64,000 bases of DNA, taken from NCBI GenBank assembly GCA_963920575.1, contig OY986975.1, positions 142,650-206,649 on the forward strand. Reading direction: 5' to 3'. A program made the translations under genes and the position numbers. Shown here piece by piece: positions 1 to 58,628 of the stretch. The notes under the pieces are model-generated. The model ran no database searches, was not told where the DNA came from, and saw only the letters and a program-made list of their open reading frames with translations. Source of the stretch: Narthecium ossifragum (Eukaryota; Streptophyta; Magnoliopsida; Dioscoreales; Nartheciaceae). The stretch's first letter is position 1. Each line of letters starts with the position of its first letter.

Positions 1-3000
1 TAGTGACAAGTATGAAATACGGAAGTAAATCTAAATTACAGAACCTTACTTAAGATTTAAGAAAAGTGCACCAATATCATAAGCTACAAACAGGAAACAT
101 TGACTACACTGAATTCATGGGGAACGAAAGCATAGAAATGCATGAGCACAAGAAGTAGGTTCATTAAACAATTCAGACAATGTACTAAAGATACTATTGT
201 CTTTGATTTGGTGCGACTTTTTGGAAGCATTCATTAGCTTTGGAACGGTCAAGGAAGGAATGTGACATCTTCGAGAAAGACTGACCTCCGAACTGTTCTC
301 CCGGATAATTTTCATATGAAGATCTCAGAAGTTCATTGAATACCACTAAATGTCAAAGAACATGCTGGGAAGCTACCCAGACCTCAGTGACAATATTCAA
401 AGTCAACAGAAAAAACAAGGATTAGTGCTAAGACTGAATACAGATCTCTTATAAAGTTGCATCTATAAAAACAAGCCGAAGATGGAAAGAACATGTACAA
501 CAACAGATTACACAAAGCAAGACATTGTTTTTCTGCTATGAACTTATCTCTATAACTTTGGATGATCAACTGCAGCAATATGGTGCAGTTGATCATTTTC
601 TTGCCAAAATAACACATGCGAAAAACTCTACTGCTTAAAAAATCTACCTTCACTACAAATACTTCACGCCTAGATTATCCAAATTCATATGAGTATTGTG
701 TAAAAGCGAGATGAATCAATGTTGCTGATGGACAAAACTATCAAAAAATTCTACATCATATAGGTGCAGAGTTGTTGAAAGCATAACGATTGAGAGCCTG
801 TATAAATTTTGTGTAGTATTGAGAGCATCACGATTGACTGCCGCACTGGACTTAGCGTCCATCATGTGATTAATCAAATTCCTACAAGAAAACAAAAACT
901 AAAGAAAAGAAAAGTGACCATGATAACAGTTCCATAAAGCAAAGGTGCCCAAAAGTTTGAACAAGTACGTGAAGAATAGTAAAAGCACACCAGTCCATGA
1001 AGCACAATAGTAGCTTAATTGGACCAGGACAACTTTCTCGTACCATTGGCAACTAGGAAGGCATTAAACACTGATTTGATTCATAACATATACAGGCTAA
1101 ACTCCATTAGGGAATCCAGGTAGAAGAATAGTTTTGTATGAGAGCAGTAAAGTCCAAAGATATCATTTTTAAGTGCTTAAAAGTAGGTATGAGACCTAGA
1201 AGATATTGTGCTTTGATATGCAAGCGTGTTATATATCCAACCAATTAGAGTGGAATCTGGAAATACCTTTTCGTTTTCTTGAAGAGCCAACTATTGTATC
1301 ATTTCCATCTGCAACCTAGAAATAATCAACTTCATCAAACATTGATAATTGCTTCTCACGTTCAAAGCAAAAATCCATCATTACCTCCGCTTCTGAGCTA
1401 AAATTGAATTCAAGGCCTTAAATTAAGGCACCCTGAAAAGTGACAAAAAAGCAATCCAATGCTTAATCCTTTCCTCTACAGAAATAGAAGCAGGGAACAG
1501 ATCATTTAGAAGCTCCATGTTCTGCGGCCTGAGACATAGCATGTAATGATTGAGCATCTAGCATCTAACGATCAAAAAAGTTCATACACAGAAAGGAACT
1601 GACCTGAAGTCTTTGCAATCATTGCTGAAGCATAGAACTAAAATGTTTACATGGTATTTGTTCGTAGTGTTCGTTAAGCATGACAAGCCCCTTAAAATAT
1701 GCAACACATTAGACCTCATAGGCTCATACAGCTCCAGCAACTTTTGCATTGCCATCTTCCTAACTGGAAGCTGAAGAAAACTGAATACATACAGTTGAAC
1801 CTATGCCCCCTTAAAAATGGACAAGAAAGCTAATGATTAGATGCACTGTCACCTTCTTGTCCCGAGGTCGTTCGGCTGCTTGCAATACTAAGTCAGATGG
1901 AAAACTCGCCAAATTCATTTTAGCCAGATCACAAACAGAGATAACAGTTTGAGTTCTCACTTTATCAGTAAAATCCAAGGGCCTCCCTTCAAGAGCAGCT
2001 AAAGTTGCCAGAAATATGAAAAGAATTGTATCAAATGTAAATACCAGGATCTCCAGTGAACCATGAAAAGTCAAATTCAATCTCACTGAGAATTCCCTCT
2101 GCTCCATTCCCAAAGGTGTTGACCACAAAACATGCTTTAGCACAATCCATTGCAGCAATCCTGACTTCTGCCGAAATTTCAGAAAATCTCTTCAATAACT
2201 CAATATAGACCAACTTATATTCCTCACCAAAATGGAGCTTAGAAAGGGTGAGAAGCTTCCCAATTAAGTGAACTGCCTTTAGACGCACATCCACCTGATC
2301 AGGCTGTGAATATAGCAGAACATTAACAGATGAGACAACAATGGTACTCTAAACGATCACAAGAAACAATCTCTGATTCTACTAGAATTGGCAAAGGAGA
2401 ATAACACACTTAAATTTACAAAGAAGATGGCATACTAATAATTCCTGAGCCAAATTGGGAATGACAGCAATGAGAATATGAGGGACGTATTAAAACATTC
2501 TGAAAATAATCTCATGGTACAATCACCTTGTCCAAAGTACATGATGTCAAGAACACAAAAATTGAAGGCTCCAGCTTTTCTGCACAGGTCTGGGTGAAAG
2601 AAATAGCGAGTCTGAAAGCTGCAGCCTGCAAAATATGCATAAGTAGCTTCCTTAATAAGTGTTCTACACCATTTATCATCTTGAAAATTACCATATTCCC
2701 CATTTCGAAGTGACATACATAAGAAGCATTACACAAGTATAATCCTGTTTCCAGCATTAAACTGATTAGATGGCAAAACATGAATTAGCCAGGACAGAAA
2801 CAATAGAAAGAAGTGATTAGTTCATATCGAACACTTGAATGTTTCCATCTTATTGGAAATTAACAAGTTAACGTCCTTTCGCTTCAATGCTCGCCGCCTT
2901 CTGCCACCAACCCTCACACTATGTCTACCCTGTTTACATTTAGAACTCTCAGTAATATTTGCTGATCGAAAAGAAAAATAATAAACCTCAGGAAAATGGG

Positions 3001-4445
3001 AAAATGGTGGTACCTAGACAAGTCCGTCGGTACACAAACAAAGGGATAAGTAGCTTCCCTGATTGATATAATACATGAGCATATATAATAGGTCACAGAC
3101 AGCACTGTAACCAATGCTGCTTAATAGAAAGTGCCATAGGTACTTTTCTCCAGAAAGAGCTTCTTAACTAGCATCTCTTGTATGCAATAAATATGGTCGG
3201 TATGACACAACTAACTTAACTCAAAATCTATGATAAACTTCAGCACGAATATAATGAAAAAAACAATCACAACAAAAAATGTGCTGCTGAGACTTTGTAC
3301 CTTTTCATCCCTTACAAGATTCAAAGGATCAAATCTAGAAGAGGTCATGTGACTTTCTCCTCCTAAATAAGTGGCACAATGCCCATCTTTGATTTGGACA
3401 TGCCCTGCAGATTTACTTCTCTAGGATAGCCAACACTTTCAGTTATCAGTATGCTTCCAAGGAAAAACATTAGAAAAGAAACAGAATATCACAGCAATGA
3501 TGAGCAAGTTGAAAATGGGAAATCAAAAGGCGACAAACACCTAAGACTAAGTGAATGATCACATATAAAAAGAAGAAACTCATACAAGTGATTGTTGAGC
3601 ATTGCCCTTACATTCTTGGACGAACAGGACATTTCTGGATGAGAGGCAGATGATGTCTACAAAGCTACTACTTACAGACAGCATACTTGCTGTAACTGTT
3701 GGAGATTGAAGGTTTCAGTTCCAAGCTAAAACTTTGTAAACAAAGGAGCACACAAAGAACATCCACGGCTCAGTGAAGACGAGCCTTACTTTGCAACAGA
3801 AAAAAAAAAACTTCAAACATTTCCAGCATTAGATCCTCACAGCCAATGTCCAGCATTAGCAGACAACACCTGAGAGCAGCTACAGTTTCCAATATCTTCA
3901 ACCTTCTTGTACAATATGGACTCCTCATATCAGCTAGCTCCGCAGAATTGTTGATTATAAGATTAAAACTGTCCCGTGGAATTCAATAAGATGAGAGACA
4001 GGTCAGAAACAGTTCTTGCGCCTGAACTATAGGAGATTTGAAGTCGCGGCCTTGCAGCCCAAGTGGACTACTCTAGAATTCTTTATGATGAAGCTACACT
4101 GGACAAAAAGAATATGGATGTGCCATCATTAAACAATAAAGACAAGTTTCCTCACGTTGATGAGAAGATTTAAGCTAAAACACAAATAAAACCACAAGGA
4201 CTGACACATTTGTGGTCATTGGAAACAAATATATATATATGGCAAAGAGACTCACATTAAATAATTCATCACCAAAAGGTGGACTTGGTGCCAGTACCGG
4301 GATGAACACACTCAAACAGACAGCAACCAACAGTCTGACATCTTTATCTCTATGTTGGAGCAAGTAATCCCGAACAAGAACATCACTTAATAAATTCTAT
4401 GCCTTCAAAGAAGAAGACTGACTTAAATCTGATAGAGCACTTTCG
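1..4445 (-). pseudogene. PDS5: Decayed PDS5 (sister chromatid cohesion regulator) copy, 3' end off the left edge
   Basis: PDS5 is a HEAT-repeat protein that binds cohesin on chromatin. Exon-like blocks lie in family order on the minus strand at about 4264-4443 (LLQHRDKDVRLLVAVC), 3791-3945 (ELADMRSPY then RRLKILETVAALRC), 3301-3385, 2524-2640 (TCAEKLEP), 2436-2521 (AVIPNLAQELL), 2044-2292 (VDVRLKAVHLIGKLL, AEVRIAAMDCAKAC), 1855-1990 (DKVRTQTVISVCDLAKMNL), 1735-1770, 1428-1535 (LFPASISVEERIKHW) and 1265-1420 (KALNSILAQKRR). The reading frame is broken in most of them: stops at 4397-4399, 3363-3365, 3345-3347, 2490-2492, 1423-1425 and 1291-1293, plus a one-base loss near 3322. Codons next to these breaks still match the family, so it is decay and not a wrong frame. 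I could not assign 1-1260; it may hold more eroded exons. Expression is possible but a full protein is not. Confidence 0.88.
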
Positions 4446-6480
4446 GCTTGCTGCAAAGAAGATTAAAAGGAAAGTAAGCCTGTCAACGTGTCTTGATAAA
4501 AGCATATAAAAGCATGTCAAACTTAACATTTTAATCAGAAAGAATAAAATATGCAAAGGTTCCCATTTGGCCTTATGACATAAACAAGCAAGTGCACTAG
4601 AAAGGCTATCACTTACGTTCTGGGTTGTAATACTTCATGACAGATGAAGAACAAGAGATTATAACAAATGTAATAGAGATCAATAAACATTATATCTGTC
4701 TAGCAACAACAGCAGAGATAGAGTCGACGATGTCATGGTTTTCATGCATCATACCATGCATAAAGATAGAAAAGAATCCTGAGAATCACCACTTGAGCAT
4801 ATTATCCAAACCAACTAAGGTCCATTGTGTGACAAAAATTGATTCAAAACTTGCAACCAGTCAAAGCAGGTAGGATATGACTTCCAAAAAGCTTAGTTCA
4901 GTGATAGCTACACACCTTTCTCTAGCAATTTGATCTATCGGGCTTAATAGTACAGGTCTTTATGGCCTTCGAGAGAGGATTATTCTTTTGCCTCTAGTAT
5001 CATGCTTTTCTGAAAAAGATCGAATTAACATCCATTTATTATTTCTTCTGGGTTTTGAACAAATGCACTATCCAAAGAACAGTGAGAATTGATGAAACTA
5101 GTTCAACCATGCTGCTAAATACAAGTGATTTATTCCTTCCATCGTATATATGGAGATCTTCTCCATTGCCAGCACAGAATTGATGAAACCAGTTCAACCA
5201 TGCTACTAAATCCAACTAATTAGGTTTGTAATATCTGCCACCGCAGCTGTTGTCACCCCTGACTTTATCAAGAGTATCACCTCCCCACCACAATAATCCT
5301 AAATCCTTCATTAGCAGACATCTCACTATACGTTATTATTAAATTTTAACTGTTAGTCAATATTTGCTAAGGCTTCTAGGTGAACTCTAGCAAACATGTC
5401 CAGACTTCTCTTCCACTAAACTAATAGCACGACTCATGCCTAGTTTAGTGGGAACGTGCATACATCGAGACCTAGATTATAAACAATCACTCCCGATATT
5501 ACATGAATAATACAGCTATATGCCAACTGAGAGCTATATAAATCCCTTACTATATAACTCCCTTTCAAAAACCAATCTGTAGTTTACATCATAACTCCCT
5601 TGTTGTATATATTTCGAGTAAAACAAATTTCACCCACTGCAACCATATCCACATGAAGCCGAAACAAAACTTCACCAACCCTCTGAAGATCAAGGCATGA
5701 ATACAACCAATATAAGCAAAGCTCATATTTAGATCCCAACTGTCAAGCAAGCTATGAAGCACCTAACTTAAAGATATCAACTTGATCACAACAAATATAA
5801 GCAGAACGAATCTTCAAAATGCAAGACAATGATTTCAGTACTCTAGACCAAGCAATATAGCATCTATGAACCCCTACATTCCACCACTAAAACGGAACGC
5901 AGATAGAAAAAACTAAAGAAAAATTAACCCAGCACCTCTAAAAGGACAACAGGTCTCGTCACATTCTAAGATCCAAGCACATTCCAATGAGTATAAGCAA
6001 AGCACAGATAAAAAACAAAACCTGCACAAAACAGACTCACCACCTCTCAAACCAGTATGAATACAACCAACGTAAACAATGCAGTAATTACTGAAGTATC
6101 TCGGCTTCAATCCAACCATCTTTAACACCACTAATCACTTCAACTTAAAAACAGACAAGATTTGCAGCATACTGACATAAGATTTCAGCTTAAATCCCAC
6201 AATTAACGACATACAAATGAACTTTAATCCCAGATCCAAGCAATAAAGCACTTGTAAAACTGCCATTATACTCCAACTCATTGGAATCTATACAAAGAAG
6301 CGTATGTGGAGAGAGAAAGAGATTACTTTTTCTGTCCTTCACAGAACCCGAGGCAATGAGGAGCAATTATAGTACAAAAGAGAGGCTGGAGACCGACATT
6401 GTCCTAACTCCAAGCCCGGAATCCTAAACCCTAGGCCCTAAATACGAAGCCCCTAATCTCTAAACCCTCTCTCGAAGAGT
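4446..6480 (-). other. 5' flank and probable leader/first introns of the PDS5 copy
   Basis: No open exon of the N-terminal part of PDS5 is recognisable here. On the minus strand 6480-6340 looks like a plant leader: CT-rich, with several ACCCTAA-like boxes (AGGGCCTAGGGTTTAGG) and a GT-type donor context near 6330. It is followed by about 1.8 kb of AT-rich intron-like DNA. The short ORFs in it (for example 4637-4873 plus and 5913-6131 minus) have no recognisable family. The start codon of the ancestral gene was not found. Confidence 0.4.
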
Positions 6481-7230
6481 TAAAGTTCAACTGAGCAGAC
6501 AAAATAGTTATATAAAGAGAGGATGAAAGAGAGAATATTTGGGACCCAGTAAACAAAAGCATGAAAACACATCAGACAATAAAAAGGAGGAAAATCAACT
6601 TCAAGAAACTTTTTGTCGTCTTTAAACTCTGAAAGGTATCCTGATCTAATCTATAGGTTTTATTTACTGTGGAATTTTCACAGTAGGGTTGACCCCATCA
6701 AGAATCATACTGGCCCTTATCTTATTCATCAAGAAACATTTCCTCGGGAAAACATACTGAATTCTTACTTTTCACCATCCTGAGGCTTAAACCATGCCAA
6801 TTCCAAAGATGATATTGCAATTACCGATACTATGACCAATTTAGGCAAAACTTCTGAATACTAACATTTCAGGCAAGCCTTGGAACATAGATAGAGAATC
6901 AAGAATCATGGAAATAGGCTGGAGAAAAATCCCCCAACACAAGAACTCTCATATCTACGAAACTATATTAAACACTCCACAAAAAAGCAAAGATGTAAGA
7001 GAGGTTTCTTTATCGTACCTCTTTCTCCTTCTCCTTCTCCTTCTTCTTGTTGTCCTCCTCTCATGGGAGAAAAGCGTATGATGGCTACAGATTTAATAAG
7101 AGAATACTTGCAAAGCAAGTTTTGAACATCAAACTTCATCAAAAACATTCCTCGGCATGTATAGACTCTGAAAACTTTAATCCAGCGGACATAACTCGAT
7201 CTTAGGCAAGATCGGACATCCTACAAAGAA
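6481..7230. other. Intergenic, AT-rich, nothing recognised
   Basis: About 750 bases with no convincing gene. A pyrimidine-rich tract lies at 7017-7060. The only ORF (6963-7148 minus) reads through that low-complexity tract and is not supported. Confidence 0.5.
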
Positions 7231-11700: not shown

Positions 11701-11782
11701 CAATTATCCTACCATTTTTCTATCTTTTTTCCTCTATTTTCATCATTTTCTCTATAGGTCGCATGCCCAAGCTTTTTCCTAT

Positions 11783-11982
11783 NNNNNNNNNNNNNNNNNN
11801 NNNNNNNNNNNNNNNNNNNNNNNNNNNNNNNNNNNNNNNNNNNNNNNNNNNNNNNNNNNNNNNNNNNNNNNNNNNNNNNNNNNNNNNNNNNNNNNNNNNN
11901 NNNNNNNNNNNNNNNNNNNNNNNNNNNNNNNNNNNNNNNNNNNNNNNNNNNNNNNNNNNNNNNNNNNNNNNNNNNNNNNNNN
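11783..11982. other. Assembly gap (200 N)
   Basis: An exact run of 200 N, probably a placeholder of unknown true size. Repeats lie on both sides (word array at left, 61-bp repeat at right), which explains why assembly failed. Translated ORFs spanning it have no meaning. Confidence 0.98.
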
Positions 11983-12235
11983 CCTCGACCACGAAGCGGC
12001 CAGATCTGGCTATTTCCCAGCCAGATCCGGCCGCCACAGACGCCGTCCTCGACCTCCTCGACCACGAAGCGGTCAGATCTGGCTATTTCCCGGCCAGATT
12101 CAGCCGTCCTCGACCTCCTCGACCACGAAGCGGCCAGATCTGGCTATTTCCCGGCCAGATCCGGGCGTCCTCGACCTCCTCGACCACGAAGTGGCCAGGT
12201 CTTGCTATTTCCCGCCCAGATCTGGCTAGATCCGG
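11983..12235. repeat. 61-bp tandem repeat, about four copies, entering the gap
   Basis: Units of 61 bases start at 12047, 12108 and 12169, with a partial or variant unit at 11983-12046. Each contains CCTCGACCACGAAGCGG, then CAGATCTGGCTATTTCCC, then GGCCAGATCCGG. The last unit degenerates into extra AGATCCGGC copies up to 12248. The left edge is cut by the gap, so the copy number is unknown. Confidence 0.93.
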
Positions 12236-13533: not shown

Positions 13534-14230
13534 ATTAGGTTGGTGTTTGAGTTGATTTAGGATTATGTTTGGATTTGGATATGATAAGGATTGCTGGTTG
13601 GATTCAGAAACACATGTATATCTATAAAATACAGGTGATCGGCTGCTTTATCGTGAGCACCTTAGAGACCTGAGAGACAGAATAAGAAGAGAGCAGCAGA
13701 GGACGTCCTGTTCTTAATTTGTACGTACGTGAGCCTGCCTCTTCGTAAATGTAAGTCTACTGTTTCTTCCTTCGTGTTTTATCTGGCGTTTCTATTATCC
13801 GGCAGTTTCTTCTTTCTTCTTAATTTGCAGAGAAAAAAAGGATAGCAATTTTTTGTTTTCCCCATCAATAAAAGTTTTGCAGCTTCATCTTTATTTGATG
13901 CAGATTGTATAATATATATATGATGCCGTTTCATCCGAGGGCTGATATATGCTTCTAGATCCTTCGGATTTTGTGTTTGGTTTTCTTATTTGTTCAGATA
14001 TTATTAGGTTGGTGTTTGATTTGATTTATGATTTTGTTTTCATTCGGATTTGATAAGGATTCTTGGTTGGATTCAGAAACACATGTATATCTGTAAAATA
14101 TAGGTCATCGGCTTCTTTATCCTGAGCACCGTTTCTATTAGCCAACAGCTTCTTTCTCCTTTGCAGAGAAAACAGAGCAGAATTTTTTACTTCACCCAGC
14201 AATAAAAGTTTCGGATCTTCATCTTTGCTG
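13534..14230 (+). repeat. Direct duplication in the leader of the F-box/DUF295 gene
   Basis: The segment from 13534 (ATTAGGTTGGTGTTTGA) to about 13897 is repeated from 14003 to about 14230, offset about 469 bases. Shared phrases include GGTTGGATTCAGAAACACAT, TCCTGAGCACC/TCGTGAGCACC, TTGCAGAGAAAA and CAATAAAAGTTT. The second copy lacks about 140 internal bases. Each copy ends in a TTTGCAG acceptor-like site, so the gene may have two alternative leader exons. Confidence 0.85.
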
Positions 14231-14253
14231 CTGCTTCGGCTTCTCCTACTCTC

Positions 14254-15423
14254 ATGGGGCAAGCCCCGTCCAACTACCGCAACAACTACAAGAAGATCAC
14301 CAACGATGACGAGAAGAGACGATGGTCGGATCTTCCCGACGTTGTACTCCACACCATTGCCATGAAGCTAAGCAGCGTGCCGACCTATGTCGCGTATGGA
14401 AGGACATGTCAATCATGGAGGTCAGTATACAAGGAAGCCATGGCCGACTACATGTCATCGCTACCTCCACTACTCATGGCAGACATTGGGTGCTCGTTAT
14501 ATACCAGCTATATTTTCTATGACATCACTGAACGGAGACACCTGAAACGGCGCAAATCTCCGATGCCGAAAAGATCACTGTATCACTCCCAACGGCCCAA
14601 CCATTACGTCTTCCACTCGAGAAAGGAGTTGATCGAGATAATCCCTTACCTCACCCATCTGCACACTGGAAGACATATGGGCAGGTTACATGGCTTTTGC
14701 CGTCCTTTTCAAATCGGAGTCTTCTGGGTGATACCTGGTTCTACCGAATGTCGGTTGATATTGTTCGTTAAGAAGGGTGCCTTCCATCTTCAGATGGAGA
14801 TGGGAGCTGGCGGCTCCGAGCCCGTGGCCCTCATCTAAGCCGGCTGGACCTACTGGACCTACTGTCCATGGCCGCCATGTACAGCTCCACCTATTGATTA
14901 CCGAGATTACAAGGTGAAACATGCCATTGTTATCAAGAACACATTGTATACCGTCTCCCTCATGCGTTGTCTCTACTTCATGCAACTCGTTGGCCCTGGC
15001 GCCTTGAAGTTTCAGTATTTTGACTTGGAATTGGAGCAGCGGTGGGCAGGTCGGCTTCTGCTGGGGGATTGGGATGGTGAGCTACTGGTATTCCAAGACC
15101 GAGAGTGTTGTCACAAAAATCCTAGTAGCCGGTTTGTTGCCATGCGGTTGGACCTGGCAGCTAGGGAGTGGGTGAGGATGGACAGCTTGAATGGCCGGAC
15201 ACTGTTCGCATCGATAGGTGGTGAATGCCAAGTGCTGGATGCTGCAAGGGTGAAGGGGATCATGAGAGATTGTATCTACATTCCTTCAGAAGAGCTCAAC
15301 GCCTTTGAAGTTTATTCTTTAGATGGGGCAAGAGTGGATGCCGATTGGACCAAGTTTGGACATATTAGTTTTCCAGTAACATCCTGGTTTTTCCCTAAAC
15401 CTTCTATGATCAACGATGTGTGA
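14254..15423 (+). pseudogene. F-box / DUF295 (KIB-type) gene interrupted by one in-frame stop
   Basis: One uninterrupted reading frame of 389 codons from the ATG at 14254 to the TGA at 15421-15423, except for a single TAA at codon 195 (14836-14838). The N-terminal half has an F-box (about residues 24-62: WSDLPDVVLHTIAMKL, then CQSWRSVYKE). The C-terminal half has the DUF295/KIB-type beta-propeller end: FVAMRLDLAAREWVRM, LNGRTLFASIGG, and a D-CIYIPSEE-L box near its end. Family members are usually intronless in this part and about 350-420 residues long, so length and domain order are as expected apart from the stop. As it stands it would give a 194-residue F-box protein without the propeller end. 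It could be a fresh pseudogene, a strain-specific nonsense allele or a sequence error. Confidence 0.82.
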
Positions 15424-49600: not shown

Positions 49601-51566
49601 ACTAAAAAATACTACAACAACATACGCCAGAAAGAAGGAACACATTTTTACCTGGGGCATAGAAGCTTAGCATTCTATTGGCATGATACCTATATAATCA
49701 ACAAGAAACAAATAAACTAGTCAGATGCAAGTTTATAGTTGCATGGCCAACACAAAAACATATTCAATATACATATAATGGTAAGTAAAGAACAGGACCA
49801 CCACCAAGAGAATTTCAGTAATGCAAAAACTTCTTGTCTATTGTCAACAATATTACATTTCCGGCATATGCACTAGTTTGTCAACTGAACAAGTTCTTAA
49901 TTTAATATTACCTAGTATGCGGCTAACAAAACATATTTTCCTGGGGAAAGATTCTGAAAGAGTGAAAGGAACATCAAACAGGCCCGATACAAGTTGTAAG
50001 CAGAAGGGACTAAAAAAAACTAGCATGGCATATAGCACAAGACAGGATATAAAACGCTCAGGAAGTTTTGCAAACGAAATGTGAGACTGCTAGGGACGTG
50101 AAAAAGAAAAAATAGCAAATGGAAGTGAGGTGCGTCTAGAAAAGCATGTTCAACAATAGGTGTAGTTTAACTCCCCAAGTCTCTGGTACAAAGTAAATAA
50201 CTGTCAAGTCATCTATGAAAATCAAATGACAAACTTGCAACAACTAACAAGTTATTTGCTTCAATTTTTTTACCATAGAATATGCATGAAGCCCACATTT
50301 AGAGGAAAGAATGTGCAAGAAGTTCCACAACTAATATAAGATCTGAAGTCATTGAAACCCACAAGAAGAATTATTATTCAGGTGTGTATTCTCTTTTCTC
50401 GCACTTGGATTGTCAAAGTGTTTAGCATAAAGAAATTAATCCAGTTCCTCTTATGCCTAAAACATTCTTAATAATTGCACTATGTTTCTTTTACTCCTTC
50501 AGACAAAACTCCTCACGTGATAATGCTCAACTACAGGATATAATCGACTCATTAACTAGGGTGGATCAAAAGAATGAAGATTTAGAGAGCAAAAGGGAGG
50601 AGAATTAAGAATTTCTAAGTCCAACTTTCACATAGACTTTCAGTTGAGACAAGAGCTATTGGAACTTAATCAGACTTGAAACGTGAAAAGTCAAACAGCA
50701 TATTAAACATGCATCCAAACCGCTGAAATACTTGAGACCTCCCGTTTCATACAGTAGAACCAAAATTACTCTCTTGACACCTGATCAGCCCGCCTATCCA
50801 CATCCGACCATTCCTTAAAAGAGAACAACTGATATTATGTTCACTTTGCCAATGAAATGACTTAGTAACGGAACCAAAGATGCTGGAGCATCATCGGGGT
50901 CAGCTGCAGTGGCTCTGATGATCTTAGTACCAAGAGCAGTTTAAAAAGCTATAATATGGTTAGATTTATAAGTCAACAAGCATCGCGTGTTAAATATTAG
51001 CAACAGCAAACGCATATAGATTTGCTACCGCTGTCCCCCTTGCTTCTTGAGCAAACCGACCCACACACCCACGAGTATCAAAAGGGGGCGTTCTTCCTTA
51101 GAAATTGTCCGGTAAGAGGGATGATTGGAATTTTCCAAAGTATCGCTGATGCAACAACAGTGCGTTTGCGATAAAAAGGAAAGAATTGGGTTGTTTACCA
51201 AGGGATGGAGTTGTCGTTGGGCTTAATGATCTTGTCGGGGACCCTCTTGTTCAGGTCGCGGAGGATCTCGGCGAGGGGTCGGGTCAGGGAAGAGGTCTTG
51301 TCCAGCGGCACAACATAGTTGGAGTTGGGTACCCCACCAACACCCTTCTTCCCGTTGCTGCTGCTTGTAGACCCTCCTCCTGCGGCCTTCTCCAGCGAAG
51401 CCGACAACCTCACCAGCTTACCGGCCGATCCCCCTCCAACGCGACCGAAGCTTAGTCCCTCCCACCGCCGTGGCGCTGGCAGCGCCAACCGAGGCTCCCG
51501 GATGGAGAGGAACACGGCGGCCTTCCCCGGCGCGGCCTTGAAAGCAGCGGTGGCAGCAACCTCCAT
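46645..51566 (-). CDS. RAD52-2: RAD52-2-like organellar DNA-binding/repair protein, 214 aa, four exons
   Basis: Exons on minus: 51199-51566, 49652-49689, 48922-49013 and 46645-46791 (368+38+92+147 = 645 bases, 215 codons), GT..AG introns. The ATG at 51566 is chosen because the frame upstream runs through a CT microsatellite. The first 60-80 residues are a transit-peptide-like stretch rich in A, S, R and G. The conserved core follows: SNYVVPLDKTSSLTRPLAEI, LRDLNKRVPDKIIKPNDNSI, WYHANRMLSFYAPGWCGEIR, VTVVYRVTIRGSDGE, then EDPVAAAEEIAFCRACARFG and LGLYLYHE. Plant RAD52-2/ODB proteins bind single-stranded DNA in plastids and nucleus and help recombination repair. The length fits the family. It ends tail-to-tail with the DUF1350 gene. 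Confidence 0.95.
47897..48309. mobile_element. Tourist-like (PIF/Harbinger) MITE, 413 bp, TTA target duplication
   Basis: Termini GGCTCCATTTGGTCGTGCGT (left) and, read inverted, GGCTCTGTTTGGGCGTGCGT (right), flanked by TTA at 47894-47896 and 48310-48312. GGcctgTTTGG-like ends with a 3-bp TTA/TAA duplication are diagnostic of plant Tourist MITEs. It sits in intron 3 of the RAD52-2-like gene. The plus ORF 47711-48235 across it is an artefact. Confidence 0.88.
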
Positions 51567-51603
51567 TAGAGTCGGCCTCGAATGACGAGAACAGTGGGAG
51601 CGG

Positions 51604-51605
<2 letters not shown>

Positions 51606-51643
<38 letters not shown>

Positions 51644-51750
51644 TCGATCGAGGGAGGGGACAATGGAGGAATGGGGAGAGAGAGAGAGCGCTGAGTTGGT
51701 CACACGATTCACACACCCACACACACGCGCGCGCACACACAGAGAGAGAG
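51606..51750. repeat. CT and CA microsatellites in the RAD52-2 leader
   Basis: (TC)n at 51606-51640 lies within 75 bases upstream of the RAD52-2 start codon, where in the transcript it is (GA)n. An AC/GC-alternating tract (51708-51740) and GA run follow. GA/CT tracts are common in plant core promoters and leaders. Confidence 0.9.
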
Positions 51751-51886
51751 CCCTTTCTTTCTCACCGACTGATGTCTGCTATAGACTTTGATTGGCCGCT
51801 TGGTTCGCCGTGTAAGGTAACCTATAGTATAATATTATGCATTGACATCCTTATTACTGTGTGCTGGAATGGACAATATAAAATTA

Positions 51887-53524: not shown

Positions 53525-53533
53525 TAATATTTA

Positions 53534-53844
53534 GGAAAATTTTTTAAAATAATCTTATTTTAATAAATTATTATTAAAATAACCCTCTCCAAAAACTATT
53601 TACCGATCTATGCCTCGTTTGGCCACGTCAGCGCCACGCTGGCGTGGCCTTTCATTTTTTACTCCCGCAGTCAAAGACGTAACTTCAAGTTACGTCTTAA
53701 ATTGAAGACGTAACTTTGAGTTACGTCTTTGAGCGTTGACCACAAAGTGCGCCGCGACCAAGTGCGGAGCCTAGAGACACGCCTAGTAAGACGTAGCTCC
53801 AAGTTACGTCTCCATAAGAGACGTAACTGCAAGTTACGTCTTCA
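53534..53844 (+). repeat. MULE left terminal inverted repeat
   Basis: Pairs with 57019-57329. It includes an internal GGCCACGTCAGCGCCACGCT segment with its own GCCACG/CGTGGC dyads, and four near-palindromes of the ACGTAACTTCAAGTTACGT type (about 53675, 53706, 53789 and 53818). Confidence 0.93.
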
Positions 53845-53985
53845 TTTGAAGACTAACGGCTTAAAGAGCCAAGTGTTAGTGTTATTAGTGGGGTTAGTAT
53901 TAAAACGTAACTTGGAGTTACGTCTCTATTAATGGAGACGTAACTCCAAGTTACGTCTTCGAAAGGAGACGTAACTTCAAGTTAC
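53675..53985. repeat. Array of ACGTAACTTCAAGTTACGT near-palindromes
   Basis: Seven copies at about 53675, 53706, 53789, 53818, 53904, 53934 and 53966. The last three lie inside the element, beyond the inverted repeat, so the array is not only a by-product of the terminal repeats. Each is a 19-23 base dyad (AGACGTAACT - 2 or 3 bases - AGTTACGTCT). The arms are much better conserved than the spacers between copies. Confidence 0.92.
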
Positions 53986-54218
53986 GGTTTAATATAAAAC
54001 ACACAGTAACCCAACACTTGGTTATATTTGACACTCTGTGTACAAACATTCAACCAAACACAAAATTTGAAAATAAAACATCACAAACCAAACATCACAG
54101 ACCAATCATCCACCCCAATTTCTGTACCCAATACATGATTACACCCACCCCATTCACATCTAAACGCAGTGCATGTATAAATCAAAATCAAACGTCAAAC
54201 ATCGTTAATAATCAAACG

Positions 54219-56449
54219 TCAAAATCTCCAAGTTCTTTGTTTCTTCTTCATTGACAACTTCTTTCTCCTCAACGACGGTCCAGCCTCCTCTCCCCCCATC
54301 GTAGCACCGATATCGATATTATGCTCAACATGTCCGATTGGATCCTCCTCTGTAGTGCCCATGACTGGATATGATGATGGTAAATCTTGAGATACCGGCA
54401 TGTCATAGAAAGTAGTATGCTCGGTAGTCGGCTGCGACTGCTGTGAACTAACAGGAGCTCCGCCGCAAATCCGTAAATCCTCCATCATCGAGTAGAATAC
54501 CGGTGCAAAACGATCGGCGAGCTCCTCCCCAGAACGACCTTGGCAGACAGTGTAACTGTCCTCGGCGGTGTCATACTGCAAGTTTAGACAATTTGATTAG
54601 ATTAACACAATATAATATTTAATTATTAACAAAAAAAATATATTTATCATCTTTCGTAAAAGGTGTATGTTCGGCTGATGGACCATTCTGTCCTCCAATC
54701 TAGGCCTACTGACATACCGCCTGGTGATCCCCCAGTACCACTGCAAGTATGACTCAGCATCCTCACCATCGTTCACTGCACCGTCAATGACCCTATGGTG
54801 CCGCTCCTCCCATTGGGTGATATACTGGTGATGTGTAGTGACCAAGTTTGCAGTAGCATTGCCCCGACGGCTTGCACGTGATAGCCTCTCGGTCACCGGG
54901 GATGGTATCTCCTGTCGTAGCCCAAACTGCCGCATCACCCGTGGTGCCTCATGCATCTCCACTATATCGAAACAGATGAGCGGCACATGACTCCTCCAAA
55001 TAGCGAAACCCGCAGTACAGAGAGCTGGTAATTGTGCTAGACGCTGCGGTGTATATGGACACCACATAACCTACAAGTTTAAAATACAAAGTCGGTTAGA
55101 TCACATGAACATTAAAGTAGTTAATAAAATCTTGGATCGTGAGCAATAATACCTGAGATGACAACTGTCTGTCCAGCTGCTCTCGGTAGTAGGCTAAGTA
55201 ACGGCCATGCGGGTTTCCTCTACCGCTGTGTGGTGCTGTCCACCTGCATTGTATATCAAGAGTTAGATGTTAATGCTAACTAAACTTCAAAAAATATTTG
55301 TAAAAAATCAAAAATTCGTACTGGATTGCCAAGGGGCCTTCAATGATACGCATATCACGCTCCTCGGTCTGCTGTTGGGTAGCTAGCGGTCGTCGCGGCA
55401 TTAGTTCAGGCCGTCCAATATGGAGGTGCTCCCATGACCAAATCTGTGATAACAACTTCATATTAGGTATAATATAAAATACTTAAAATAACTATATATA
55501 ATATATAAATGACAAATCACCTGTAGCAGGTAAAGGCATCCAGAGATCTCATGCTTTCCTCCTTTTGAAGCTTTACCTAACTCCCGAAAGAGATTTGCAA
55601 GGCAGGCCGCCCCCCAAGCATACTGTCCACATATATCCAAATCATGCAACAAAGGAAGGTACTTCATATGTACCTACAATTGAAAGACTATGTTAGTTAA
55701 TCTAATAAATCGATAAATGAAACATGAATACGCAATTATACTTACCCTGGAACCACTCGCGTCAGGTACTACTAAACAACCCAACACATATAGGATGTAG
55801 GCGCGCGTAGCCTGATATACGAACAGATCCGTGGCGTCTGGACCAATATGCCCGAAAGTAGCACGTAGCCACGACAACTCAAGCACAGCCGGTCGGCCCT
55901 CCTCGGGTACAGCACCGAGCAACTCCAAGCATATGTCATGCCAAATGCCTGCCGTGCTTCCTGAAACTACCCCCCCATCAACAGATAAACCCATCAATAT
56001 CCCAACATCCTGCAGTGTGATCGTCATCTCCCCGTGTCGCAAGTGGAAAGTAGTAGTCTCTGGTCGCCACCGCTCCACTAGCGCTGCGATCAAACACCGA
56101 TCCATCCGAATCGGCAGCAGTCTACTAACAACATAAAACCCTGAACGTCGAAGCAAGTCTATCTGACGCTCATCCACAATCGGCCAAGACTGCAAACGCA
56201 GTAAGTGCTCTGTACACTTAAGGCCGAGGTCATCGTCATCCTGTTTGTAAAACATAAAAGTTAGTAGGGGGCTTTTTTCAATAAAATATGAAGAGCTAAT
56301 AACAATAAATTTTCTACAAATTTAACATTTACCTGGCCATCCCAAACCGCCGTGGAGCGGTGCTTATCCTGGTCCCAAAGTACGTCTGCAGAAATCGGAC
56401 CAGGCTCACCCTCATACGGCCTCGGGTCAAAGGCCCTCGTGTGAGCCAT
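54219..56449 (-). CDS. Plant mobile domain (PMD-C, MAIN-like) gene inside the MULE
   Basis: Exons on minus: 56333-56449, 55746-56240, 55521-55673, 55322-55443, 55153-55243 (978 bases, 326 codons), then exon 6 from 55070. PMD landmarks run in order: LRLQSWPIVDERQIDLLRRS, GFYVVSRL, ALVERWRPETTTFHLRHGEM, TITLQDVGILMGLSVDGGVV, a W-GAACLANLFRELGKASKG stretch, IWSWEHLHIGRP, and WCPYTP then WYWGITRRYVSRP. PMD proteins (MAIN, MAIL1) act in the nucleus in gene expression and silencing; many PMD genes travel in transposons. Exon 6 stays open to a stop at 54597, giving about 483 residues. A further plausible exon (54219-54565, YDTAEDSYTVCQGRSGEEL) has a good acceptor, but I see no GT donor to join it. 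The frame is otherwise free of lesions. Confidence 0.85.
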
Positions 56450-57018
56450 CTCGACCCTATTGCATGTAGAAGAAAAATGTTAGTATATAGTTCAAAATGA
56501 AAGATATGTACAGTCGTCAAAAAATCAATTTTGCATAAAAAACCCTAATTTTGCATATGTAAACCCTAATTCTCAAACAACAAATACATAGTAATTATGA
56601 TGCATTACAGCATAATCAAATCAATATCAAATTTTGCATAAAAAATCAATTTTATACTCTGAAAAAAATCAATTTTGCATATATAAACCCTAATTCTTAC
56701 ATAACAAATACATTGTTAAAATTTTAAAGAAAAATCTCACTTGGAGAGGAAGATGGAGAAGATCCAGAAGTTTGGAGGTGTTTTCGTCGGAGAAACGCCG
56801 GAAAATCGCGCCGTACGAGTAAATGGGGAGGGAGGTATGCTCGGTTGGGAGGGGGGGCAGGTGGGGAAGGAGGAGGGGGCCCGCTGGCCGCGTGCGGACG
56901 CCCGGCGACGAAGATCGCCGGAAAATCACCGGAGATCGAGAGAAGTAGAGGGGTTTGGAGAAGGAGAAGGGTGTCGGGTGGGGAAGGAGGCGGGCTGGCC
57001 GTCGGGGGTAATTAGAAT
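56450..57018 (-). promoter_or_regulatory. Promoter/leader side of the PMD gene
   Basis: Holds a near-duplicated phrase (TTTTGCATA-AAACCCTAATTC) at 56530-56580 and 56670-56700 with three ACCCTAA telo-boxes, which often drive expression in dividing cells. A GC-rich stretch follows (56800-57000). The plus ORF 56741-57142 runs into the terminal repeat and is a shadow. Confidence 0.5.
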
Positions 57019-57329
57019 TGGAGATGTAACTTGCAGTTACGTCTCTTATGGAGACGTAACTTGGAGCTACGTCTTAATAGGCGTGTCTCTAGGCTCCGCA
57101 CTTGGTCGCGGCGCACTTTGTGGTCAACGGTCAAAGACGTAAGTCGAAGTTACGTCTTCAATTGAAGACGTAACTTGAAGTTACGTCTTTGACTGCGGGA
57201 GTAAAAAATGAAAGGCCACGCCAGCGTGGCGCTGACGTGGCCAAACGAGGCATAGATCGGTACATAGTTTTTGGAGAGGGTTATTTTAATAATAATTTAT
57301 TAAAATAAGATTATTTTAAAAAAATTTCC
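57019..57329 (-). repeat. MULE right terminal inverted repeat
   Basis: Inverse of 53534-53844 with a few substitutions. It carries the matching four near-palindromes (57021, 57051, 57135 and 57166). Confidence 0.93.
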
Positions 57330-57342
57330 TAATATTTATCTA

Positions 57343-57880: not shown

Positions 57881-58628
57881 TGTTAGGAAATCCGGCGGGG
57901 ATCAAACCAAGATGGGAGAGCACCAAAATAGAACTAGGAGGAGAAAAGAGACACCAGATTTAACGTGGAAAACCTCCCGGCAAATCACCGCGAAGGAAAA
58001 ACCACGGGAAGAAGATCTTCACTATATGAGGAGATTTACAAGACTCAATCTCTCAACTCTTACACAGATCTTCTCTCTTCCCTCCCAGTACGTTCTCACG
58101 CACTTACAGATCTCTCTCTGCCTTCTTGCTTTCTCTCAAGCCCTAAGACCTCTCTCTAGGCCTCCAAGATGAGAACCCACGTTCTGCCAATTAGGGTTAC
58201 ACACAACCCTATTTATATGGCCTAATACAATTAGAATCGGAATTGATCCTAACCGTCCAAAAAAACCCAGTCTACTGTTTTCGGATCGATCCAAAGATGC
58301 CTTGGATCGATCCAACTGTGCGACGACCAGACCAGTTCTCTGTCAACTGGTCTGGGATCGATCCACTGTTGCTCTGGATCGATCCAACTTTGGTTTTGGA
58401 TCGATCCAAGGTGGATTGGATCGATCCACTTTGCCAGACTATAAATACGTCTCTGGAAAGAACGTTCATATCGATCCAGACAAGTCTGGATCGATCCATA
58501 CTCACTTTGAATCGATCCAACAGGACCTTGCATCGATCCAAGTTCCAGAACGAGCCCAAAAACAGCAACCATCACTTTGTTCTCCGTTGAAGTCACTGCC
58601 AGCCTCATGAGGAGGGATTTTCCCAACA
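57881..58628 (+). mobile_element. Solo LTR, 748 bp, with 5-bp target duplication GTTAG
   Basis: Starts TGTTAGGAAA and ends TTTCCCAACA (inverted ends TG..CA). It is flanked by GTTAG at 57876-57880 and 58629-58633. No internal retrotransposon DNA or second LTR follows, so it is a solo LTR left by unequal recombination. From 58285 to 58545 it carries about ten copies of the palindrome GGATCGATCC or one-base variants. Confidence 0.92.

Follow-up and report, generated by a model that had tools for sequence, protein, structure and literature searches.

The plant mobile domain (PMD) is already documented as a second reading frame of plant Mutator-like elements (MULEs) (PMC6446971, Table 1; PMC5418596). 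Table 1 of Dupeyron et al. (2019, PMC6446971) places it in the groups MULE-Monocots, MDR, MUDRAVI2 and MUDR, and describes MULE-Monocots as having "PMD in most, sometimes antisense" and terminal inverted repeats (TIRs) of 14-421 bp. The relevant sections of Ikeda et al. (2017, PMC5418596) report that PMD-C was captured by MULEs in grasses and Amborella, infer more than one such capture from other species, and suggest an anti-silencing role, a suggestion repeated in a passage of PMC8616336. Here we describe a PMD-carrying element in a 64,000-nucleotide stretch of the Narthecium ossifragum genome (contig OY986975.1, positions 142,650 to 206,649; hereafter the window, to which all coordinates refer unless stated otherwise). 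Comparison with its relatives in the same genome indicates that it is very probably a non-autonomous, internally deleted TIR-MULE whose full-length kin encode a MURA-type transposase together with a resident PMD gene under selection.

The family resembles the PMD-carrying MULEs described in those sources in its SWIM-finger MULE transposase accompanied by PMD, its 9-bp duplications and its long TIRs. It differs in that the transposase and PMD lie in separate frames with a stop between them (one copy scanned for splicing), whereas the proteins presented by Ikeda et al. for grasses and Amborella are fusions; in addition, the window copy has lost the transposase by deletion and retains PMD alone, and selection on the PMD is measured here. 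VANDAL elements, as characterized in the VANC work (PMC5735166), likewise have a second gene beside the transposase and dense short motifs in their non-coding parts, but VANC has DUF1985/DUF287, whereas a Pfam scan here gave PF10536 only, and the present elements have 308-bp TIRs. Pack-MULEs share with the window copy the MULE ends, a 9-bp duplication, the lack of a transposase and a host-type gene inside; in our family, however, PMD is standard in the full-length layout and under old purifying selection, and is not a recent host fragment. Maize MuDR has deletion derivatives lacking transposase. Like our full-length copies, MuDR is a two-gene MULE (mudrA and mudrB; PMC6446971 in part, otherwise general background), but compared by layout the second gene here is a PMD gene, downstream of the transposase on the same strand. 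Finally, the host PMD-C proteins MAIN, MAIL1 and MAIL2 have the same domain, and the element PMD groups with proteins named MAIN-LIKE 2; it differs from the host proteins in being carried in tens of mobile copies, with the best-scoring database proteins 44% identical.

Since 2017 it has been an open suggestion that a host silencing domain is put to use by transposons in copies of their own. Searches of PubMed Central (PMC), which leave subscription papers mostly outside, found no test of nonsynonymous to synonymous rates (dN/dS, or omega) on a MULE-borne PMD. The present analysis contributes the anatomy of a deletion copy with PMD alone, together with the measured constraint on the PMD; that MULEs carry PMD, and that it might counter silencing, has been published before.

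A deletion derivative of a two-gene MULE

The window element is 3796 bp long (53534-57329) and is bounded on both sides by a perfect 9-bp target site duplication, TAATATTTA, identical at 53525-53533 (left) and 57330-57338 (right), as the first-pass annotation had reported. That annotation also gave arms of 311 bp. The arms are indeed long, but their gapless length is 308 bp: the left TIR, on the PMD 3'-end side, lies at 53534-53841 (plus strand) and the right TIR at 57022-57329 (minus strand), and each matches the reverse complement of the other at 97.4% identity (8 mismatches in 308 bp; one BLAST alignment extends to 314 bp). We did not use arm divergence to date the element, since MULE arms may differ already at insertion. 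Together, the 9-bp duplication, the long TIRs and the transposase found in autonomous layout in family members are the traits of TIR-MULEs of the Mutator superfamily, whose duplications range from 8 to 11 bp. The absence of a readable transposase was also correctly noted: a tblastn search (E up to 1e-4) with two MULE transposases from the database found none in the window element and gave matches in 17 of 25 arm-paired elements.

These paired elements came from a search of the window's own genome (379.4 Mb in 150 contigs; the window lies on contig C13 of genome G000) with the left arm. Scoring covered the best 40 of 548 first-look candidates, which biases the sample toward young copies. From these, 28 stretches were taken and 25 arm-paired elements recovered, window included, and the arms therefore recur. 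Two copies (L024, L033) had a single arm in the stretch taken and were left unpaired, and the left arm of L028 is partial and adjoins unread bases. Identical 9-bp flanks were found in 23 of the 25 (18 unshifted and 5 after a shift of the end by 1-7 bases), which exceeds chance, including two simple-sequence duplications (L030, L035); the exceptions are L010, with mismatched flanks, and L028, whose left end is unread.

The first-pass annotation had raised the questions whether all copies carry PMD and whether some carry a MUDR transposase. Most copies do carry PMD, and many carry both genes. Protein matches to transposase and PMD occur together in 17 of the 25 elements, with PMD downstream on the same strand, although four of these (L014, L027, L029, L030) have a partial PMD only. 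Another seven (window, L010, L020, L022, L025, L028, L035) have PMD without a transposase protein match, with transposase DNA remnants kept in L022, L025, L028 and L035, and one 1.4-kb element (L015) has neither gene. Full-length members are about 6.8 kb long and have two transposase exons, the first open over 178 aa and the second, which stops before the PMD ATG, over as many as 732 aa. In L021, transposase exon 2 contains the MULE (PF10551, E=2.5e-18), MuDR DNA-binding (PF03108, 8.7e-8) and SWIM (2.6e-5) domains.

Alignment to these full-length copies accounts for the structure of the window element. In gene orientation, its positions 1-811 correspond to 1-832 of L023 and its positions 810-3794 to 3817-6829. 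The same break was found against L009, L012, L013, L016, L021, L026 and L032, making eight full-length copies in all. The junction lies at 56519-56520 (no strand), where about 2.99 kb with the whole transposase is missing and the two matches overlap by 2 bp. As judged by these alignments, what separates the window copy from a full-length element is a single missing internal block of about 2.99 kb, which holds both transposase exons. This single deletion removed the transposase and placed the PMD gene directly behind the 5' end of the element: a 5' segment common to full-length elements, which lies upstream of the transposase there, directly precedes the PMD gene here (56521-57021, minus strand). 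Because the full-length relatives carry the block that is deleted here, the loss of transposase is derived and secondary, and because they carry transposase and PMD, the family has the PMD as a regular second gene and not as fresh cargo. From established MULE biology, the window copy would move only with transposase supplied by a relative.

It should also be noted that several other copies are unusual. L018/L019 (14.6 kb) has extra DNA in PMD exon 6, and L017 (9.1 kb) and L030 (8.2 kb) have extra DNA in the transposase region. L024 (G000:C7:5256000-5265927) has one arm and a weak transposase match, with no PMD match in the stretch taken; it could be a relative that has a transposase and lacks PMD, or else a copy that has been damaged. 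A pair of 1.4-kb copies separated by 45 kb (G000:C1:13706155-13707583 and C1:13750978-13752406) has equal arm scores and spacing, possibly reflecting segmental duplication.

Purifying selection on the PMD between subfamilies

A search with the exon-6 peptide of the PMD gave 308 candidates, of which 150 were scored. They fell into groups at 93-100% and about 80-86%, with others down to 58% and many with stops. We refer to the window copy's own subfamily as A and to a second, related subfamily as B. Per-site majorities were built from 15 A copies (those with the best-scoring arms) and 8 B copies, the latter hand-picked for open exon-6 matches at 83-84% identity; flanks were taken for two B loci. 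Both of these B loci have an arm 66-77% identical to A, transposase exon 1 (87-88% protein identity), parts of transposase exon 2, and PMD, and both are without other parts of exon 2. Since both genes are present in A and in the two B loci, the two-gene layout is older than the A-B split.

Between the A and B majorities, PMD exons 1-6 differ with dS 0.297 and dN 0.040, an omega of 0.136. Omega is 0.125 for the PMD domain, 0.464 for exon 7 and 0.199 for the whole gene, and 62 of 317 intron sites differ. Values for the transposase are similar, at 0.143-0.166 for exon 1 and 0.127-0.145 for the N-terminal part of exon 2. The pattern between subfamilies is unlike that within A: in exons 1-6, changes private to single A copies comprise 83 nonsynonymous (N) and 43 synonymous (S), versus 42 N and 80 S between A and B (Fisher p=1.1e-6), and for the whole gene the N:S counts are 103:52 versus 76:99 (p=3.9e-5). 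In a neutral simulation with the observed mutation spectrum, the observed 71 N, 89 S and 0 stops compare with means of 108, 41 and 11.6; the 1000 neutral runs never gave fewer than 90 N, more than 59 S or fewer than 3 stops. At the level of sequence, these comparisons demonstrate that purifying selection has preserved the PMD in the transposing lineage, with a strength close to that on most of the transposase. The constraint implies that, for the element, the PMD has had a value similar to that of most of the transposase and, because it operated between subfamilies that already had both genes, suggests that the PMD serves the element.

Young copies show a different picture. Among 15 A copies with a whole PMD gene, the start, frame and splice sites of introns 1-5 are intact in five (window, L013, L016, L022, L031), three of which (L013, L016, L022) have a 3-base gap in an otherwise intact gene. 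Transposase exon 2 was aligned in 11 copies and is free of gaps and stops in three (L009, L021, L034), and L023 has a 12-base gap and no stop. PMD is damaged in all four of these, so that none of the 11 copies has both exon 2 and PMD undamaged. Private changes number 103 N, 52 S and 12 stops in PMD (omega-like ratio 0.84) and 59 N, 27 S and 2 stops in transposase (0.80), and 121 of 189 PMD changes are C>T/G>A, the pattern expected of cytosine-methylated DNA. Both genes thus decay near neutrality in young copies. As these ratios cannot tell PMD from a neutral sequence, and the same is true of the transposase, the older A-B split is needed. The question of the first-pass annotation, whether PMD dN/dS lies below 1 between copies, is answered by the low values between subfamilies and not by the near-neutral changes of young copies.

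A first rival explanation is Pack-MULE-like cargo, in which a transposase-less element picked up a host PMD gene and carries it passively. The window copy does lack a transposase and its gene is of host type, and changes within A are near neutral, both the private ones and those that at least two copies have in common (17 N, 6 S). This rival is largely refuted by the joint presence of transposase and PMD in full-length relatives and in the two B loci and by the low omega between subfamilies, and we consider it very unlikely. The first-pass annotation had left a role in the element's own cycle and captured cargo as alternatives. A role gains from the recurrence of the arms, from sister copies with both genes (other cargo was not systematically searched) and from the constraint on the PMD; cargo loses ground since the lack of transposase is a secondary deletion.

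A number of observations weigh against a resident, selected PMD. Selection is inferred from two subfamilies of one genome, and the B copies have flaws: L041 and L043 are rearranged, L044 is gapped and L040 is divergent at its tail. Pairs among four B copies give omega values of 0.36-1.33. The constraint on PMD exon 7 is weaker (0.46). Transposase residues 373-631 also give 0.46 (A versus B2, on 30 changes), in a C-terminal stretch that is 95.6% identical and looks exchanged between subfamilies. The changes shared by at least two A copies, although few, appear unconstrained in PMD (ratio 1.09 for the whole gene; 9 N and 6 S, 0.57, for exons 1-6), with 16 N and 2 S in the transposase. Deletion copies show no clear preference for keeping the gene, as all of PMD is spanned by 4 of about 12 (window, L011, L022, L025). 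Lastly, the PMD of subfamily A may be truncated by a changed splice donor (483 aa versus about 585).

In one B-type locus (L047 with L042, G000:C11:22474600-22481220), a transposase stretch (query 2883-3661) is 95.6% identical to A and its surroundings are 80-86% identical. Sequence identity of this kind points to probable recombination or gene conversion between subfamilies.

Structure of the PMD gene and the intron-6 donor

The PMD gene of the window copy lies on the minus strand and, as first modelled, has seven coding exons and 584 codons plus a stop. These are exon 1 with the ATG (56333-56449), exon 2 (55746-56240), exon 3 (55521-55673), exon 4 (55322-55443), exon 5 (55153-55243), exon 6 (54651-55070; comparison with subfamily B puts the ancestral exon end at 54648) and exon 7, the C-terminal tail (54219-54575). 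Its sole Pfam match is the plant mobile domain PF10536, at residues 80-438 (E=2.7e-90). The first-pass annotation was thus right about the gene, although it counted six exons. Its description of the gene as nearly lesion-free is correct in that there is no internal stop and no frameshift, but is too kind: at 14 codons the window copy departs from the majority sequence of its subfamily (10 missense and 4 silent changes), among them residue 402, which is Leu in the window copy and Trp in 49 of the 54 relatives that have a residue there (79 aligned, 25 gapped).

These differences bear on a further rival, that the window PMD has been domesticated and is preserved because it now works for the host. 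The open reading frame and the position of the element about 2 kb upstream of a RAD52-like gene would fit such a role. The excess of missense over silent changes from the majority, including one at a well-kept residue, and the many near-identical copies elsewhere in the genome make domestication the least probable of the explanations considered.

At the modelled end of exon 6, the intron-6 donor is AT instead of GT in all 16 subfamily A copies examined; the window copy reads ATG|ATAAAT. All 8 B copies have GT at the matching place, three bases past the first-modelled exon end. We considered the AT donor as a lesion of the window copy and rejected this: being common to all A copies examined, with GT in B, it is a subfamily trait and not a single-copy lesion. 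If the AT donor is unused, exon 7 is probably outside the protein, and the A protein may stop inside intron 6 at about 483 residues, lacking the tail encoded by exon 7. Such a loss of the tail in subfamily A would agree with the weaker constraint on that exon.

Palindrome arrays and possible functions of the PMD

Eleven 21-bp palindromes of the type GACGTAACTNNNAGTTACGTC lie in the arms of the window copy and in a zone just inside the left arm. Seven (with up to 4 mismatches) are at 53676-53988, in the left arm and just inside it, and four of the same type are at 57023-57187 in the right arm (no strand). The core ACGTAACTNNNAGTTACGT has 681 exact matches genome-wide, irrespective of family, versus 0 for the reversed pattern. 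Comparable arrays are present in A copies and in the two B loci scanned, though the arms are otherwise 66-77% alike. The palindromes may be binding sites of transposase, PMD or host factors. Separately, repeated palindromic TGGATCGATCCA units lie just outside the element (58283-58498).

If the PMD serves the family, it could do so as a helper acting in trans, which is our choice of mechanism. We give interference with host silencing and direct aid to transposition or integration the same tentative weight, with something else only slightly behind. Interference could work, for example, if the element's PMD competes for PP7L or other partners with the host's own PMD proteins of the MAIN/MAIL1 type.

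An anti-silencing PMD of this kind, acting in trans against host silencing as a MAIN/MAIL1 competitor with PP7L and perhaps using the palindromes as an address, is a possible explanation that we hold at well short of even confidence. Parts of the literature are in line with it: host MAIN and MAIL1 are described as silencing transposable elements (PMC5418596, PMC7156037), and VANC of another MULE group is described as removing methylation via non-coding motif arrays (PMC5735166). So are the purifying selection on the PMD and the palindromes, which are present in both subfamilies and whose core has 681 matches in the genome against 0 for the reversed pattern. However, the C>T/G>A excess in the copies, as in silenced DNA, and the lack of any copy with both genes undamaged lean against strong protection today. 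Tea PMD genes are themselves reported, in the relevant part of PMC10673657, as sources of phased small interfering RNAs; the arm palindromes may simply bind transposase; and the A protein may be a truncated one.

By analogy with what has been proposed for the maize MuDR mudrB product, the PMD might alternatively be a transposition accessory that aids excision, integration or nuclear entry of the transposase. Its constraint is like that of most transposase pieces, and its position downstream of the transposase on the same strand recurs as the same domain order in all 9 two-domain database proteins listed (see below). Deletion copies without intact PMD exist, which counts against this role, though PMD could serve in trans. 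We rate this possibility, like anti-silencing, as tentative, and the two as about equal. A more specific model, in which the family PMDs are palindrome-addressed anti-silencing factors acting in trans to subvert MAIN/MAIL-PP7L, and PMD-only copies such as the window's would shield the family without making transposase, is speculative and in our view rather unlikely. A direct test is possible, as this one genome naturally contains copies that have both genes, copies that have only PMD and copies of 1.4 kb that have neither.

Origin and relationships of the PMD

Among database proteins, those with the best scores share 44% identity with the element PMD over about three quarters of the query, and one shorter match reaches 48% over 40%. 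In a 50-row quick tree, A and B group with a further 20 rows, among which are grass PMD proteins and proteins named MAIN-LIKE 2 (SH-aLRT branch support 98), a grouping that favours derivation as cargo from a host gene. Two host PMD exons (L049, L050) fall in the same set. They are only 55% (L049) and 49% (L050) identical to the window copy over exon 2, so that any capture from these would be old, which again speaks against recent cargo. The position of A and B inside the set differs between the 50-row and 94-row trees.

At least 9 database proteins have both MULE transposase and PMD domains (Heliosperma 5, Setaria 2, Senna 1, Lupinus 1; among the best 120 matches per listing), with the transposase first and then PMD in 9 of 9. 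Forcing these 9 together with A and B into one clade of the 50-row tree worsens the log-likelihood by 603 (approximately unbiased test, p-AU 5e-36). These trees were made by a short search, have long branches, and include many unlabelled rows that may be MULE-derived with split gene models. On this topology, repeated recruitment of PMD by MULEs is likely.

Splicing of the two frames into one protein was also considered. The transposase frame stops ahead of the PMD ATG, and L021 (the one copy scanned) has one weak phase-right donor (score 0.6). An in-frame transposase-PMD fusion by splicing appears improbable from this copy, in which no good phase-2 donor was found.

A search of viral contigs for relatives gave no match. 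Genome-wide, PF10536 gave 2033 first-look candidates, of which 117 were scored; these fall into several size classes, many open over 220-500 aa. The host genome is thus rich in other PMD families, which are probably mobile.

Other features of the window

The first exon of a RAD52-2-like gene lies at 51195-51761 on the minus strand, with the element about 2 kb upstream of its likely ATG. The best named matches of this exon are in Dioscorea (56% identity over 89%), Phalaenopsis (55% over 79%) and Elaeis (89% over 37%), closely followed by some eudicots, which makes a monocot host probable. At about 11780-12000 there is a run of unread bases (X in translated frames), a masked or gap stretch in the assembly. 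Two open frames in one phase with a single stop between them, at 14206-15423, have an F-box-type look by eye.

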